Source: Pseudomonas deceptionensis (GTDB taxonomy: Bacteria > Pseudomonadota > Gammaproteobacteria > Pseudomonadales > Pseudomonadaceae). Taken from it: a DNA stretch of 64,000 bases. Where the stretch lies: positions 4,547,501 through 4,611,500 of the forward strand of contig NZ_FNUD01000002.1 in the NCBI RefSeq assembly GCF_900106095.1, read 5' to 3'. Below the pieces are notes generated by a model. It saw only the letters and a program-made list of their open reading frames with translations. It was not told the DNA's origin and did no database searches. The translations under genes were made by a program, and so were the position numbers. Shown here one piece after another: positions 4,930-61,714 of this stretch (positions within the stretch are counted from its first letter, which is position 1; every line of letters begins with the position of its first letter).

Positions 4930-6285
4930 TTAGCTCCGTACAAACAGCTTGGCCATCACCTCTAGCAGACGATCATCCTCCCCGGCGGCACCTATCACCT
5001 GCAGCCCCACCGGCATCCCACTCACCTGCCCCACCGGCAGGCTGATCGCAGGCAACCCGGTCAGGTTCCAGGCGCTGGTATGGCTGAGCACTGCGGCGCG
5101 TACATCGATGTCCTGTTCACCTACCCGAATCTGCCGGGCATCGATCTCTGTGGCGGTAATCGGCACGCAGGGCGAAACCAGAAAGTCATAGTGCTCGAAC
5201 ACATCCGCCATCGCCGCCTTGAGTCGCGCCTGGCCCGCCTGGGCACGGATGTAGTGCCAGCCCCGGACTTCCTGCGACAACTCAAGGCGCTCGCGCACTT
5301 CCTGATCGAACAGCTGCGGTGCCTCATGCATGCGCTCGGCATGAACATCAAAGGCCTCGGCGCGTTGCAGCACCAGCAAGGTGTCTTTCATGTCCGCTGC
5401 CAGCGGTTGCAGTTGCGCAGTATCCTGCAGCGCTTCGCCAAACATCTGCTGTGCCGCCTGGTAGACCTGGCGATCCACTTCGGTGTCGACCGGGCCAAAG
5501 CTGCCGGAGGTGATCCATCCTACCCGCAGGGGCCGAGGATTATGCACCGGTGCACAGGCTCGCCCGACCAACACCTCAAACAGCAGGCGCGCATCCTCAA
5601 CGCAGTTGGCGATGGGGCCCACGTGGTCGAGGCTCGACGACAGCGGGAACACCCCCTCCAGCGGCACAGCGGCAAACGAAGGCTTGAAGCCGACCACGCC
5701 GCACAACGCCGCAGGAATGCGGATCGAACCGCCGGTGTCGGTACCCAGCGCCAGCGGGACCATGCCGCTGGCGACGGCGGCTGCGCTGCCCGCGCTGGAG
5801 CCGCCCGTGATGCAACGGGCATCCCACGGGTTACGGGCCGCGCCCTGAAACGAACGGTCGCCGGTCGGGCCGTAGGCGAACTCGTGGGTCAACGTCTTGC
5901 CGACAATCACGGCCCCGGCCTCGCGCAAGCGCTGCACACAGAGCGCATCGCGCTCCGGCTTGAAGCCGTCGAAATGCGCCGAGCCATAGGTGGTGACGTA
6001 GTCGCAGGTGTCGATATTGTCCTTCACGGCCACCGGTATGCCGTGCAGCGGGCCCAGGTCCACGCCCTGGGCGAGCAACTCATCGGCTTTGCGGGCCTGG
6101 GCCAATGCCACGGGGGCATCGACCTGAACGAAGGCATTCAGGATCGGGTTAAGCCGCTCGATGCTGTCCAGGGCAGCCTGGGTCAGCTCGACGCTCGTCA
6201 GGCTGCCCTCGCGCAGGCGCCCGGCCAGCGCGGTGACCGGTTGGCCAAAAAAATATCCAGCGTGGGCAGGTTTCGCCAGGCTCAT
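4930..6285 (-). CDS. Amidase-signature family hydrolase
   Basis: Cytoplasmic amidase of the GatA/AtzF signature family, 451 residues. The Ser-cisSer-Lys triad is visible: K88 in AVKDNID, S163 in GGSSAGSAAA, and S187 in GTDTGGSIRIP. The start at 6285 (MSLAKP) has GGAG eight bases upstream; an in-frame start 21 bp earlier is less well placed. It follows the MFS gene by only 13 bp on the same strand, so the two are co-transcribed, and both lie opposite a LacI-family regulator. The likely role is hydrolysis of an imported amide, but the sequence does not reveal the substrate. It is not GatA of the tRNA amidotransferase: no gatB or gatC is adjacent and the context is catabolic. Confidence 0.88.
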   Translation of the reverse strand: MSLAKPAHAGYFFGQPVTALAGRLREGSLTSVELTQAALDSIERLNPILNAFVQVDAPVALAQARKADELLAQGVDLGPLHGIPVAVKDNIDTCDYVTTYGSAHFDGFKPERDALCVQRLREAGAVIVGKTLTHEFAYGPTGDRSFQGAARNPWDARCITGGSSAGSAAAVASGMVPLALGTDTGGSIRIPAALCGVVGFKPSFAAVPLEGVFPLSSSLDHVGPIANCVEDARLLFEVLVGRACAPVHNPRPLRVGWITSGSFGPVDTEVDRQVYQAAQQMFGEALQDTAQLQPLAADMKDTLLVLQRAEAFDVHAERMHEAPQLFDQEVRERLELSQEVRGWHYIRAQAGQARLKAAMADVFEHYDFLVSPCVPITATEIDARQIRVGEQDIDVRAAVLSHTSAWNLTGLPAISLPVGQVSGMPVGLQVIGAAGEDDRLLEVMAKLFVRS

Positions 6286-56196: not shown

Positions 56197-57222
56197 ATGA
56201 CACCCTTCCAGGAATTTGATGCCGAACTAGAAGACTGGAACGCGTTACGCACCAGCACACCGTGCAGCGGACTGCTGGTCGGTAATGGTGCAAGCATGGC
56301 CGTGTGGCATGATTTTTATTACGAGTCGTTGTTTGATAAAGCCAGAAGCATCGCCGAAAAGCCCCTCAGCCAGACCGAACTTAGTGTGTTCGAAGCCTTG
56401 AGCACCCGCAACTTCGAGCACGTCCTGAGCGCCCTCAAAACCGCCAGCAAGGTCAACAAGGCACTGGCCATCAACTCGGCTTCACCACGCAAGCGCTATT
56501 ACGCGATCAAGGAAGCGCTGATCAACAGCACCCAGGACGTCCACATCCCGTGGCGCCTGATGCCACCCGAAACCCTGGCCTGCTGGAATGAAGAGCTGGC
56601 CCGGTATGCCACGGTGTATTGCTCCAATTACGACCTGCTCACTCCGTGGGCGGTCATGCAATCGCCCAAAGGGTTCAACGACTTGTTCGCCACCCCGGGG
56701 GCCACCTTCGAGCCGGGTGCGGCGCAGGTCAAGAGCAAAGCCACGCGGGTGCTGTACCTGCACGGAGGCCTGCACCTGGTCAAAAACCAGGAAGGCAAAG
56801 CGCGCAAGATCGCGGCCAATGAGCCCACTTTGTTAAGCAACTTCGCGATCAATCACTCGATCAGCGCACTGGATGACGTGCCGTTATTTGTCAGCGAAAG
56901 CACCAGCGAGGACAAACGTAAATCCATTCGCTACAGCGATTACCTGTCCTATTGCCATGAACAGCTGATGACCCATAAGGACGCGCTGTGCATCTTTGGC
57001 CACAGCCTGGGCGAACAAGACCGGCACCTGATCGATGCCCTGCAACAGGCGCCGCTCAAAACCCTGTGCATCTCGATCTACCCGCGCAGCGAAGCGTTTA
57101 TCCGCTTCCAAAAAAACCACTACACGGCACTGTTTGCAGATAAAAAGCTGACATTGCGCTTCTATAACTCGAAAACCCACCCGCTGGGCTACACCCGTCA
57201 CTCGGTGCCGGTCGAAGAGTGA
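56197..57222 (+). CDS. SIR2-like protein of the DUF4917 type
   Basis: Soluble protein of 341 residues. A Rossmann-like start LLVGNGAS (residues 27-33) resembles the nucleotide loop of SIR2-fold enzymes; a central LYLHGGLHL (about H189) and later IFGHSLGEQDRHLIDAL (F267-L282) match the LHG and G-S-x-G-D-x-H positions of SIR2-like proteins. I recall it as DUF4917. Such proteins often act on NAD in anti-phage systems, but this gene has no partner beside it (REP repeat and YegP gene after, alcohol dehydrogenase before). Its function is unknown. Confidence 0.72.
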   Translation: MTPFQEFDAELEDWNALRTSTPCSGLLVGNGASMAVWHDFYYESLFDKARSIAEKPLSQTELSVFEALSTRNFEHVLSALKTASKVNKALAINSASPRKRYYAIKEALINSTQDVHIPWRLMPPETLACWNEELARYATVYCSNYDLLTPWAVMQSPKGFNDLFATPGATFEPGAAQVKSKATRVLYLHGGLHLVKNQEGKARKIAANEPTLLSNFAINHSISALDDVPLFVSESTSEDKRKSIRYSDYLSYCHEQLMTHKDALCIFGHSLGEQDRHLIDALQQAPLKTLCISIYPRSEAFIRFQKNHYTALFADKKLTLRFYNSKTHPLGYTRHSVPVEE

Positions 57223-57321: not shown

Positions 57322-57654
57322 TCACAACTTCTCTTTAACTACCGTCGTCGGCCCATTGTGTTTCACGCTGGCAATCCCTTTTTCCCGGGCTGCCTCGGAG
57401 GAATATTGTTCGCTGGTCCCGATGATCTGGTGATTGGCGGCCTTGAGGTTGAAGTACGGCTTGCCGTCCTTGGCCTCCTTCCTGTCATAGCGTTCATCCA
57501 GCGGGCTGTTGGTCTGCACAGACGCGATCCCGTTTTTGGCAGCCGCCACCGTGGTGTACTGCTCACTCACCAAAATCGTCTCGGCATTCGCCGCCTTCAA
57601 CACAAACCGAAATTGCCCACTGCTGGTTTTGCTCAATTCGTACCAACCAGACAT
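57322..57654 (-). CDS. YegP/DUF1508 family protein (two repeats)
   Basis: Protein of 110 residues built of two copies of a ~48-residue unit (F.FVLKAANAETILVSEQYTT.AAAKNGI.SV and YFNLKAANHQIIGTSEQYSS.AAREKGIASV). This family is small and beta-alpha, function unknown. Confidence 0.9.
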   Translation of the reverse strand: MSGWYELSKTSSGQFRFVLKAANAETILVSEQYTTVAAAKNGIASVQTNSPLDERYDRKEAKDGKPYFNLKAANHQIIGTSEQYSSEAAREKGIASVKHNGPTTVVKEKL

Positions 57655-57773
57655 TGCCTTTCTCCTGAGTGTTTAACGTGTTTACTTCACCCTCAGTAAA
57701 GCGTGCATGGGGCATTTATCCATTTATCCGAAGGAATTAGCCGAAGTCCGTCGTTTAGAGAGAGACAAATAGC

Positions 57774-57792
57774 AATGGTTCTCGATACCATT
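57774..57792. promoter_or_regulatory. Candidate Fur box upstream of the sigma/FecR fusion
   Basis: A 19-bp palindrome with arms AATGGT / ACCATT (AATGGTTCTCGATACCATT), of the size of a Fur site, 38 bp before the start codon. The match to the GATAAT consensus is only partial, so this is tentative; iron-responsive sigma genes normally carry one. Confidence 0.4.
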
Positions 57793-57829
57793 CGCAAATT
57801 ATTGGCTGTGCTGCCCCTCAAGGATTTCC

Positions 57830-59047
57830 ATGTCCCGCCTCAAATCCGACCCATTGGTGGCTGAATCACTGCGCGAGTTCTACACGCAAATTCTGCACTT
57901 CCTGCGTAAACGCACTGACAACGCCAGCGACGCCGCTGACATGACGCAGGATGTGTTCACTCAATGGCTGGGCTACCAGGATCGGGCCAAGGTCGAGCAG
58001 CCACGGGCATTCCTGTTCCAGATGGCACGTAACCTCTTGCGCGACCACTGGCGGCGCCAACAGGTGCGACAGGCCGTTCACAGCGAGCACGTCGAGAGTG
58101 AGCCCGAGCCCTTGAGCGATGAGCGGTATGAACCGATGGCCGCAGCCCAGCGCCTGCAACGTCTGGATCAGCTCAAGGCGGTACTCGCCGAGCTCCCGCC
58201 CAGACGCCGTGAAGCACTGATGCTGCACCGCTTTGAAGGCTTGAGTCAGGCCCAGATTGCCCAGCGCATGGGGATCTCCGTCAGCATGGTCGAAAAGCAC
58301 ATTGCCTTTGCCTTGCTGCACTGCAAGCAACATTCAAATTTTGCGCTACCCACCGCTCTTGCCGTGCTCTGTGCCATGTTTTCACTGAACCTCGGCGCGC
58401 CGGTGTCGCTCCACCAGCAGTACGTCGCCACCCAGCCCCAGGGCACGCAAACAGTCTTGCTGCCCGACGGCAGCACCCTGAGCGTCAATGCCAATACGCG
58501 TCTGCGCATCGACTTCGGCGCGTATCAACGCGATATCTATCTGGACAAGGGCCAGCTCTATATCGAGGTTGCCGCCAACAAAGAACAGCCGCTGGTGGTG
58601 CATGCCGGGGATGCGAGCATCCGGGTGGTCGGCACCGGGTTTGATGTGCGCCGCAGCCAGCACCAACTGGTGGTCAGCGTCGCCCACGGGCAAGTGGCGT
58701 TTATGCCGGATGCCAACACCTCGACGCTGCTCGGCGCCCAACAACGCACCACATATGATTACGCCAGGGCGTCCACTCAAGAGCAAAACCTCAGCCCGGG
58801 CGAGGTCGCTGACTGGCGCAGCGGGCACCTGTCCTTCCGCAATCGCGAACTGGCCAGCCTGGTGGACGAGCTTGATCTGTATCGCCCGGGGATGATTCAA
58901 CTGGCCGAAGGCCCACTGGGCCGCTACAAGGTCTCGGGCAACCTGGATGTCAACGACCCGATGGCGCTGGTCAAAGCCCTCCCCGCGCTGATCCCGGTGA
59001 AAACCGTGCTGCTGGACAACGGAAAAATCCGCATCGAACCGCGCTAA
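57830..59047 (+). CDS. Hybrid ECF sigma factor / FecR-type anti-sigma protein
   Basis: A single 405-residue protein joining two regulators that are usually separate. Residues about 10-165 are an ECF (FecI-like) sigma factor: region 2 with DMTQDVFTQWL, then region 4 with ELPPRRREALMLHRFEGLSQAQIA. A membrane helix follows (about 171-190), then a periplasmic FecR domain (about 205-310, with VVGTGFDV) and a C-terminal STN-like end (about 337-405). The N-terminal anti-sigma domain of normal FecR is missing. P. putida IutY is a described precedent. It lies directly upstream of a TonB-dependent receptor gene. AAGGA precedes the ATG. Confidence 0.92.
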   Translation: MSRLKSDPLVAESLREFYTQILHFLRKRTDNASDAADMTQDVFTQWLGYQDRAKVEQPRAFLFQMARNLLRDHWRRQQVRQAVHSEHVESEPEPLSDERYEPMAAAQRLQRLDQLKAVLAELPPRRREALMLHRFEGLSQAQIAQRMGISVSMVEKHIAFALLHCKQHSNFALPTALAVLCAMFSLNLGAPVSLHQQYVATQPQGTQTVLLPDGSTLSVNANTRLRIDFGAYQRDIYLDKGQLYIEVAANKEQPLVVHAGDASIRVVGTGFDVRRSQHQLVVSVAHGQVAFMPDANTSTLLGAQQRTTYDYARASTQEQNLSPGEVADWRSGHLSFRNRELASLVDELDLYRPGMIQLAEGPLGRYKVSGNLDVNDPMALVKALPALIPVKTVLLDNGKIRIEPR

Positions 59048-59050
59048 AAA

Positions 59051-59081
59051 AACATATGCGAATATTTTGCATTCGCATATG
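59051..59081. terminator. Hairpin between sigma/anti-sigma and receptor genes
   Basis: Perfect 12-bp arms ACATATGCGAAT / ATTCGCATATGT with a seven-base loop, preceded by A7 and followed by GGTTTTTT. It is a good intrinsic terminator on the plus strand, 4 bp after the fusion gene's stop, leaving only about 87 bp for the receptor promoter. Confidence 0.8.
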
Positions 59082-59167
59082 TGGTTTTTTCAGCGCGCCA
59101 CGTCTTCCTTCGGTCTGCGTTGCCAACGCATGTCTTTTTGGCCTTTGTTGCCGCACCGGGGGATTTC

Positions 59168-61714
59168 ATGTTTCGCGCACCACATCACTTCTCGCACTTG
59201 TGCACACGCCCGACACTGCTCGCCGCGTGCCTGGTGCTCAGCCTGCAAGCCCACGCCGAATCGATCCAGTTGCAACTGCCGACGCAATCGCTGGCCAGTT
59301 CGCTCAGTGAGGTGGCGCAACAGGCAAAAATCCAGCTGCTGTTCGATGAAGACCTGTTGCGCAACATCAAGGCCCCTGCGCTCAAGGGCGACTACACACC
59401 GCAACAGGCCATCCAGTTACTGCTCAAGGGCACCGATTTCAGCCTGATCCAGGTCGACCGCACCTACGTTGTACGGCCCCGGGAAGACGGCACCACCACC
59501 AGCAACAGCCTGGAGCTGGGGGCGGTCAGCGTGGTGGGCAACGGCAACGAAGTCGACTCCAGCAACGTCGGCAAGTCGACCATGACCCAAACCCAAATCA
59601 ATCAGTATCAGGCCAACAACATCCCGAGCCTGCTGGCCACCCTGCCGGGCATCAACCTCGGCGGTTCGCTCAAGCCGGGCGGTCAGACCATCAACATTTG
59701 GGGCATGGGCGAAGCCGAAGACGTTCAGATGACCGTGGATGGCGCGACCAAAAGCGGCTTTGAGCGTTACAAGCAGGGCACGATCTTTATCGAACCCGAG
59801 CTGATCAAACGCCTGGAAGTCGAGAAAGGCCCCCACGACATACACACCGGCAATGGCGGTTTTGCCGGCGTGGTGCACATGGAAACCAAAGACGCAGCCG
59901 ATTTGCTCGTAGAGGGCAAGAATACCGGCGCCATGCTCAAGTACGGTTACAGCAGCAATGACCATCAACAGGTATACAGCGGCGCCGTGTATGGCCGCAC
60001 TGACGATGGTCGCGCCGATGCGCTGGTGTACTACACCAAACGCGACGGTGACAATATGAAGCTCGCCGACAACATGCCCGATCCCCGCCATGAGTACCCG
60101 GTAAACCCGCGGCGTCTGCCCAACACGGCCCAGGATCTGGACGGGCAATTGCTCAAGCTCAACCTGCACCTCAATGACGAGCACAGCGTCGGCATGTCCT
60201 ACTCGCGCTCGAACAATTACCTGTGGGTGCCCTTCTCGGCAGTCAGTTATCCGGAGCCAGCCAGCCAGGCCAGCATCGCCAAATATGGCTATGACATTGC
60301 CTCCCGGCGATACCTGTCCAACCGCTCAACCCTCGACACCACCTGGTCGGCCAAATACAAATACGAGCCTCTGGACAACCCGCTGGTAGACCTTGAGGTG
60401 AAGTACTCGCACTCCAACACCGAACAAACCGACAAGCGCGGCGAACAGGCCTACACCCAGCCCACGACCGGCGGGCGCAAGATGGAAACCGGCTACACCG
60501 ACGACATGCTGCAGATCGAAAACATCAGCCTGTTTGCCACTGGCCCGCTGGACCATGCCGTAACCACCGGCGTGCAAATCCGCAAGCATCAGCGTGATGT
60601 GGACATGTGGATGCCGGGCGGGAGTTATGAAACCGAGAAATACAACTACGGCCACTACCAGCCCAACTTCATGCCCAGGGGCAAGGTCGATACCAACAGC
60701 TTCTATATCCAGGACGCCATCACCCTGGGGGATTTCACCCTGACCCCCTCGATGCGCTATGACCATGTGCGCAACCGCGGCCAGGAAAACGACGCCCCGT
60801 ATTACAACCACCCGGAATTGGGCCATGACTACAGCAACAAAACCTACACAGGTTGGTCGCCGCGCCTGTCGGCCTTCTGGACAATAACCCCCAAGACCGC
60901 CCTGTTTGCCAACTACAGCAAAACCTGGCGCGCCCCGGTGATTGACGAGCAGTACGAAGTCCAGGGCGTTGGCAGCCGCACCTCCAGCAGCCTCAACCTC
61001 GACCCGGAACGCATTACCGGCTGGCGGGCGGGCAATATCACCACGTTCGACCAGATCTTTAGTGAGAACGACCACGCGCTGATCCGTACCACACTGTTTC
61101 GCAACAAGATCGACGATGAAATTTTCAAAGCCACGGGCGTTGGCTGCGCCGCACAAACAGTCGATGTCAGCATGAGCACAGCGTGCGGCCCCAATATGCC
61201 CAACTACCGCAATATTGGCAGTGTGACCATCAAGGGCTTTGAGGTTGAAAGTTTCTATGAGTCCACGTACGTCTTCGGCTCACTGTCATACGCATGGATG
61301 ACGGGTAAACACGAAGGCGCCTACACCAACCCATGGGGCCCCAACGTCTGGGCCCGAGATATACCGGCGCCAAAATGGATTGCCGTACTGGGCACCAAAA
61401 TACCGAGCCTGGATGCTCGCGTTGGCTGGAAGGGAGAATGGGTGCGTAAAACAGACCGCAGACCGAGTGACGACTACTACAGCAGCCCGATCAGCGCCCT
61501 GGGTGACCGTTACTGGGATCATTACAATAACGACGGCTACAACGTGCAGGGCTTATTCGCCAACTGGAAGCCGCAACAGTCTTACCTTAAAGGCACTGAA
61601 GTCAACTTCACCGTGGACAACCTGTTCAACAAAAGTTATCGCCCGATGCTCAGCGGAGAGAATGCCTACAGCCAGGGCCGCAATGCGAAGATCAGCGTGA
61701 CGCGGTTCTTCTAA
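59168..61714 (+). CDS. TonB-dependent haem-type receptor with signalling domain
   Basis: Outer-membrane receptor precursor of 848 residues. A signal peptide (about 1-31) is followed by an STN/secretin signalling domain (about 33-110, IQLQLPTQSLASSLSEVAQQA), a plug (EAEDVQMTVDGATKSGFERY and RLEVEKGPHDIHTGNGGFAGVV) and a beta-barrel ending VTRFF. The STN domain marks a cell-surface signalling receptor, which fits the sigma/anti-sigma gene upstream. Sequence style resembles the haem/haemoglobin (HxuA-like) group rather than a siderophore receptor such as IutA; I am moderately sure. The start at 59168 (GGGGGA upstream) is preferred to an in-frame codon 87 bp earlier. Confidence 0.85.
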   Translation: MFRAPHHFSHLCTRPTLLAACLVLSLQAHAESIQLQLPTQSLASSLSEVAQQAKIQLLFDEDLLRNIKAPALKGDYTPQQAIQLLLKGTDFSLIQVDRTYVVRPREDGTTTSNSLELGAVSVVGNGNEVDSSNVGKSTMTQTQINQYQANNIPSLLATLPGINLGGSLKPGGQTINIWGMGEAEDVQMTVDGATKSGFERYKQGTIFIEPELIKRLEVEKGPHDIHTGNGGFAGVVHMETKDAADLLVEGKNTGAMLKYGYSSNDHQQVYSGAVYGRTDDGRADALVYYTKRDGDNMKLADNMPDPRHEYPVNPRRLPNTAQDLDGQLLKLNLHLNDEHSVGMSYSRSNNYLWVPFSAVSYPEPASQASIAKYGYDIASRRYLSNRSTLDTTWSAKYKYEPLDNPLVDLEVKYSHSNTEQTDKRGEQAYTQPTTGGRKMETGYTDDMLQIENISLFATGPLDHAVTTGVQIRKHQRDVDMWMPGGSYETEKYNYGHYQPNFMPRGKVDTNSFYIQDAITLGDFTLTPSMRYDHVRNRGQENDAPYYNHPELGHDYSNKTYTGWSPRLSAFWTITPKTALFANYSKTWRAPVIDEQYEVQGVGSRTSSSLNLDPERITGWRAGNITTFDQIFSENDHALIRTTLFRNKIDDEIFKATGVGCAAQTVDVSMSTACGPNMPNYRNIGSVTIKGFEVESFYESTYVFGSLSYAWMTGKHEGAYTNPWGPNVWARDIPAPKWIAVLGTKIPSLDARVGWKGEWVRKTDRRPSDDYYSSPISALGDRYWDHYNNDGYNVQGLFANWKPQQSYLKGTEVNFTVDNLFNKSYRPMLSGENAYSQGRNAKISVTRFF

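Follow-up and report, generated by a model that had tools for sequence, protein, structure and literature searches.

Two questions are raised by a locus in Pseudomonas deceptionensis, in the 64,000-nucleotide stretch of contig NZ_FNUD01000002.1 that we analysed (positions 4,547,501 to 4,611,500; hereafter the window, whose own numbering is used below): how did one gene come to encode both an extracytoplasmic function (ECF) sigma factor and its FecR-type anti-sigma regulator, and does the product still work beside its haem-type receptor? We consider it probable that the locus is functional and signals the presence of haem, or of a haem protein, at the cell surface, a small deletion having made the sigma factor and the FecR-type regulator a single protein. 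As judged from sequence, what stands out is a hybrid that is linked to a haem-type receptor, was made by deletion, and has a pre-fusion state surviving in close relatives.

A scan for open reading frames (ORFs) in the window found a single uninterrupted frame of 405 codons at 57830-59047 on the forward strand, which is divided as follows.

57830..59047, forward strand: sigma/anti-sigma hybrid gene, 405 residues, about 45.6 kDa (ORF and Pfam)
57830..58327, forward strand: predicted cytosolic ECF sigma domain, with sigma2 at residues 15-78 and sigma4 at residues 113-165 (Pfam, AlphaFold model)
58334..58335, forward strand: fusion junction (alignment with split orthologs)
58340..58411, forward strand: predicted single transmembrane segment, within residues 171-194 (hydropathy, model)
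58424..59044, forward strand: predicted periplasmic FecR/PupR-like domain, including Gly268-Thr269 and Trp329 (Pfam, Foldseek)

Pfam matched Sigma70_r2 (residues 15-78), Sigma70_r4_2 (113-165) and FecR (199-289) in the hybrid, all above cut-off, and together with hydropathy these matches confirm the protein described in the initial annotation, with ECF regions 2 and 4, one helix and a FecR domain. Nineteen-residue windows with a mean hydropathy of at least 1.6 start only at residues 171, 172 and 176 (best 1.83 at 176). An AlphaFold model built with 25 sequences (mean predicted local distance difference test score 84.6, predicted template modelling score 0.53) has the sigma helices, a beta-rich C-terminal half and, at the membrane stretch, a short low-confidence helix at 173-185. 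Hydropathy and this low-confidence stretch of the model place a helix within residues 171-194 of the same chain, in agreement with the earlier proposal that the sigma part is tethered in the membrane. In Foldseek the fold of the periplasmic part matched 6ovk_R, the signalling domain of PupR, at E 1.4e-17, and the model also matched the FecR-like anti-sigma structures 4m0h/4m0n and, more weakly, ECF sigma factors. The "STN-like end" first ascribed to the protein fits the PupR match, although Pfam STN has no match in the 405-residue hybrid itself; the STN domain found by the profile search that had been called for lies in the receptor. Pfam likewise found no match in the hybrid to DUF4880, the cytosolic anti-sigma N-tail, which is the absence that had been noted and which can be seen in the DNA by comparison with split relatives. 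In phylogeny the sigma groups among FecI-like sigmas paired with FecR and not outside the cell-surface signalling groups, a placement that would have spoken against the proposal. Of the suggested comparison with FecI, HxuI and IutY, the trees cover the FecI-like, FecR-paired setting, and HxuI through its presumed representative, P0121; they were built without IutY.

In the closest relatives found, Pseudomonas from the fragi/lundensis group, separate genes encode sigma and FecR. Both parts were located in 108 of the 109 relative loci fetched (the other being L111), and their frames differ in all 108. In P. paraversuta (L016), the end of a 179-residue sigma gene (at 5540) and the start of a 312-residue FecR gene (at 5537) overlap in an ATGA, and DUF4880 is present in a split 312-residue relative, P0014. 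When aligned with ten split loci, the window has its one coding-part gap at 58334/58335, and its span is 257, 260 or 269 bp shorter than those of the closest split relatives. The absent piece comprises the last sigma residues, the ATGA overlap, the whole DUF4880 N-tail and the stretch rich in arginine that precedes the membrane segment. All three lengths leave a remainder of 2 on division by 3, so the deletion joins both frames. The alignments show that a haem-type sigma/anti-sigma pair became one protein through this small deletion, much as the initial annotation had imagined ("as if HxuI and HxuR were joined"), the names HxuI and HxuR being putative. A database protein with one residue different from the window hybrid, P0001, has the identical junction; its cluster counts 53 members, represented in this comparison by P0001. 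In a sample of 398 genomes that may partly overlap the 109 loci, 120 genomes match, including the window's own, and among the matches listed none of the other 119 has a one-frame match. L038, considered as a further fusion for its short span, was rejected, as its parts lie in different frames and its best piece covers sigma residues 96-167 only.

Downstream of the hybrid gene lie two further features.

59052..59082, forward strand: terminator-like hairpin between the hybrid gene and the receptor (conserved in relatives)
59168..61714, forward strand: haem-type TonB-dependent receptor with an STN signalling domain, 848 residues (Pfam, TIGRFAM, conservation)

The receptor has STN, Plug and barrel domains by Pfam and passes the cut-offs of two haem families (TIGR01785, 422 against 317 bits; TIGR01786, 368 against 324 bits). 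The solved structures nearest to it by sequence are PhuR, ShuA-type receptors and HasR, and the receptor is thus haem-type and not aerobactin-type, as first read. Its longest ORF begins at GTG 59081, at the foot of the hairpin, and ATG 59168 begins the conserved ATGTTTCGCGC; for both reasons the start is likely ATG 59168 rather than the listed GTG. The stretch 59045-59167, with the hairpin and the receptor leader (GAATATTTTGCATTCGC ... CGTCTTCC), is kept even in more distant split relatives. This stretch is perhaps a terminator plus the target promoter of the sigma; a sigma-70 promoter scan found none.

Two characterised systems resemble the locus. IutY of P. putida (PP2192), the characterised FecR-type hybrid, belongs to ECF243, a group starred for "only certain members" (PMC8999054), and it is termed unique in PMC5411451, PMC7593790 and PMC9249621. 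In response to aerobactin, IutY is cut by Prc and then RseP, which frees the sigma (PMC5411451, PMC9249621). Truncated IutY proteins are active without signal, versions that retain periplasmic residues still require RseP, and changes at Asp210, Arg231, Phe251/Val253 and Trp301 activate IutY or make it constitutive (PMC5411451). IutY and the window hybrid share a sigma domain, one helix, a periplasmic FecR domain, the lack of a separate anti-sigma and an adjacent TonB receptor with a signalling domain (for IutY, PMC5411451). With ECF regions 2 and 4, a helix followed by FecR, no DUF4880 and an adjacent STN receptor, the window protein is of the IutY type; IutY proper is linked to the aerobactin receptor IutA and has 374 residues, whereas the window hybrid has 405 and its receptor falls in haem families. 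By spacing, on the residue numbers given in PMC5411451, the counterparts of Asp210, Arg231, Phe251/Val253 and Trp301 are hybrid residues 213, 234, 255/257 and 329. The spacing from Leu255 to Trp329 is 74, against 50 from Phe251 to Trp301 in IutY, so the window hybrid is probably not an IutY ortholog.

The other system, HxuI/HxuR/HxuA of P. aeruginosa, likewise combines a receptor of haem type with a dedicated ECF sigma and FecR, but its sigma and anti-sigma are separate proteins, and the cytosolic N-tail of HxuR has pro-sigma activity (PMC7593790). Among P. aeruginosa entries the nearest is P0121, which branches beside the window clade (support 99/96 and 99/98). We infer that P0121 is HxuIR, which would make the window pair the ortholog of HxuI/HxuR; the names HxuI, HxuR and HxuA are accordingly presumptive here. 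A literature search, whose reach stopped short of subscription papers and of the ECF classification's own tables, found no haem-linked hybrid.

A Gly-Thr pair is reported for FoxR and FecR cleavage (PMC9249621), and the hybrid has one at residues 268-269; from this pair and the IutY-residue counterparts we infer a tethered sigma that is released on haem. At rest, the helix, which follows region 4 with almost no linker, would hold the sigma at the inner membrane, and inactivity would be due to this tether and not to a binding N-tail. On binding haem, the receptor would use its STN domain to signal to the FecR part in the periplasm, and proteolysis of Prc type and then RseP type would strip that part off (genes of both families are present in the genome). 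The freed sigma, of about 21 kDa, would then transcribe the receptor gene. Haem as the signal, tethering as inhibition, release by proteolysis and activity without the N-tail are all putative steps; the haem response and the proteolytic release are drawn by analogy with HxuR and with IutY, a model for proteolysis of these regulators, whose plan would here serve haem. The role of the FecR N-tail becomes testable with a haem-linked hybrid whose split relatives survive, and a haem response of the hybrid would mean that an anchored sigma can dispense with the pro-sigma function of the N-tail.

We found two orthologous hybrids, P0002 and P0003, which are database proteins from contigs shorter than 2 kb and are known from the hybrid part alone. 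Both are fused proteins of 419 residues without DUF4880, 79 and 76% identical to the window hybrid, with equally long linkers that exceed the window's by 14 residues and keep the arginines before the helix. They form a 100% clade yet differ at 72 of 419 residues, so their hybrid has outlasted real divergence. In the best tree, which took in 25 of the 108 split loci, the window groups with the split loci L016 and L099 (support 74/82); holding window, P0002 and P0003 together was not rejected (approximately unbiased (AU) test, p 0.279), and these tree tests appear compatible with either one or two fusion events.

With the N-tail deleted, the tether may replace it, the sigma may have changed, or the allele may be dead, and the constraint data favour the first two over the third. 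Mean omega (the ratio of nonsynonymous, dN, to synonymous, dS, substitution rates) between the window and 15 split loci was 0.060 for the sigma, 0.155 for FecR and 0.116 for the receptor, against 0.094, 0.144 and 0.116 among split loci, and for none of the three did the window's dN to two outgroups exceed the range of the split loci. The analysis covered 17 loci, 15 of them for the averages, after pairs of low or undefined dS were dropped and the receptor was cut to 459 codons, as three loci hold only part of it. These rates indicate that hybrid and receptor are under continued purifying selection, with no sign of decay. Several observations weigh against a working unit: omega is only rough because of high dS values (about 0.4-1.3 for the pairs given), and the window fusion may be so recent that substitution rates do not yet reveal a loss of function. 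HxuR is among the regulators whose N-tail is reported to be required for sigma activity (PMC7593790), and in the window hybrid the N-tail is deleted; furthermore, residue 255 is Leu where IutY has Phe. Additionally, the upstream Fur-like match (57740-57800) agrees at 10 of 19 positions, which 853 of 1000 shuffles equalled or bettered.

A recent loss-of-function allele is in our judgement unlikely; on this reading the sigma cannot act without the deleted N-tail, the hybrid is dead, and the receptor is either silent or under the control of another sigma. Such an allele would fit the description of the HxuR N-tail as pro-sigma, and two other haem-type receptors (TIGR01785 above cut-off), at 1.61 and 4.76 Mb in the same genome and beside split sigma/FecR pairs, would be able to take over. 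Damaging deletions also seem to occur in a related pair, as the P. aeruginosa protein P0129 (306 residues) runs from sigma region 2 into the FecR part, with region 4 and the helix missing. The Fur-like match upstream of the window hybrid is weaker than in most relatives (11-14 of 19 in 69 of the 75 scored), and iron control is possibly weakened in the window; a Fur box upstream of the hybrid gene was rejected, as the match does not rise above chance there. Against loss of function, the frame is exactly kept and sigma, FecR and receptor show no relaxation, the junction occurs in the non-identical P0001 with its cluster of 53 members, and the orthologous hybrid has lasted in P0002/P0003.

Somewhat less probable still is a sigma that is only loosely restrained without the N-tail, so that the hybrid is constitutively or partly active and the receptor, once haem-induced, has turned mainly iron-controlled. 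The signal-independent activity of truncated IutY (PMC5411451) points in this direction, as does the arginine-rich stretch that was lost at the window junction and retained in P0002/P0003; the periplasmic sensor is under ordinary constraint, however, which a constitutive protein would not need. That the fusion is an artefact of annotation or assembly, and in truth two proteins, is very improbable. The database does list a 223-residue FecR-end protein, P0004, which starts at hybrid residue 183 (window 58376-59047), and one annotation of this record may have taken only the FecR end and so hidden the fusion; that call begins part-way through the membrane segment, most of which the protein would then lack. 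Base-calling error is ruled out because the gap is clean, exceeds 250 bp and has the same junction in P0001, and sequencing error hiding two genes was rejected on these grounds. The hidden stop or start between the two parts that had been raised as a danger was not seen, as the ORF is continuous and P0001 carries the same fusion.

To place the haem-linked hybrid among others, we considered the best 120 of 487 and the best 120 of 493 matches in protein-database searches, drawn from 7997 candidates sharing most words. The sigma+FecR pair profile ranks fused proteins first, and the best 120 of 493 matches include two further hybrids, P0133 and P0134, as well as the two disturbed P. aeruginosa entries P0121 and P0129. 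Among the matches listed, unbroken full-length matches were confined to the window and G009 (L156) in 398 genomes of the genus, and to the window, G633 (L176) and G615 (L177) in 398 genomes of the phylum; both searches scored the four best candidates per genome, and with the genus matches reaching about E 1e-83, weaker hybrids could be missed. The phylum search also gave a partial unbroken match, G234:C101 (positions 77-382). P0133, P0134, G009, G633 and G615 belong to lineages other than the window's, all consist of sigma, helix and FecR, and none has DUF4880. G009, G633 and G615 adjoin siderophore receptors (TIGR01783 above cut-off) that are FhuA-like but below the FhuA cut-off; the hybrids L176:3773-5032 and L177:5004-6374 come from another bacterial family. 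IutY, cited at the outset as a known hybrid of this plan, does share the plan, but the rarity this implied has to be qualified, as further hybrids were found.

The sister of P0133 and that of G009 are each a split pair of the window's own genome (100/100), and P0133's split sister has a receptor that resembles FecA but scores under the FecA cut-off. Since G633 and G615 share only 44-46% identity within their clade, one of the hybrid lines may be old. That the hybrids in the tree arose once was strongly rejected (eight hybrids, AU p 7e-81; window, P0133 and G009, 5e-53), in a test that was run without IutY and with no close split relatives of P0134, G633 or G615 in the tree. P0121 (500 residues) was rejected as a clean hybrid, as the middle of the protein comes from the N-tail region read in a different frame, and P0121 and P0129 suggest that the operon may be prone to rearrangement. 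We give even odds to a broader reading, in which the evolution of cell-surface signalling ends time and again in tethered sigma hybrids: by losing the N-tail, pathways of three proteins would repeatedly become pathways of two, and an anchored sigma would have no need of the N-tail, whether as inhibitor or for pro-sigma activity. If so, the window offers such a case alongside its split sisters, in an Hxu-type system where the N-tail is reported as required.

In profile searches of the same genome, 14 of 15 FecR domains adjoin a sigma region 4, and the window pair is the only sigma/FecR pair in one frame. The remaining FecR gene (4435963-4436220, L009) has no adjoining sigma gene, although the opposite strand carries a sigma region 4 some 10 kb away; this gene perhaps encodes an FpvR-type regulator. 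Upstream of the hybrid operon, Pfam identified a DUF4917 gene (56197-57222) and a DUF1508 gene (57322-57654), and the sequence immediately upstream of the operon varies among relatives.

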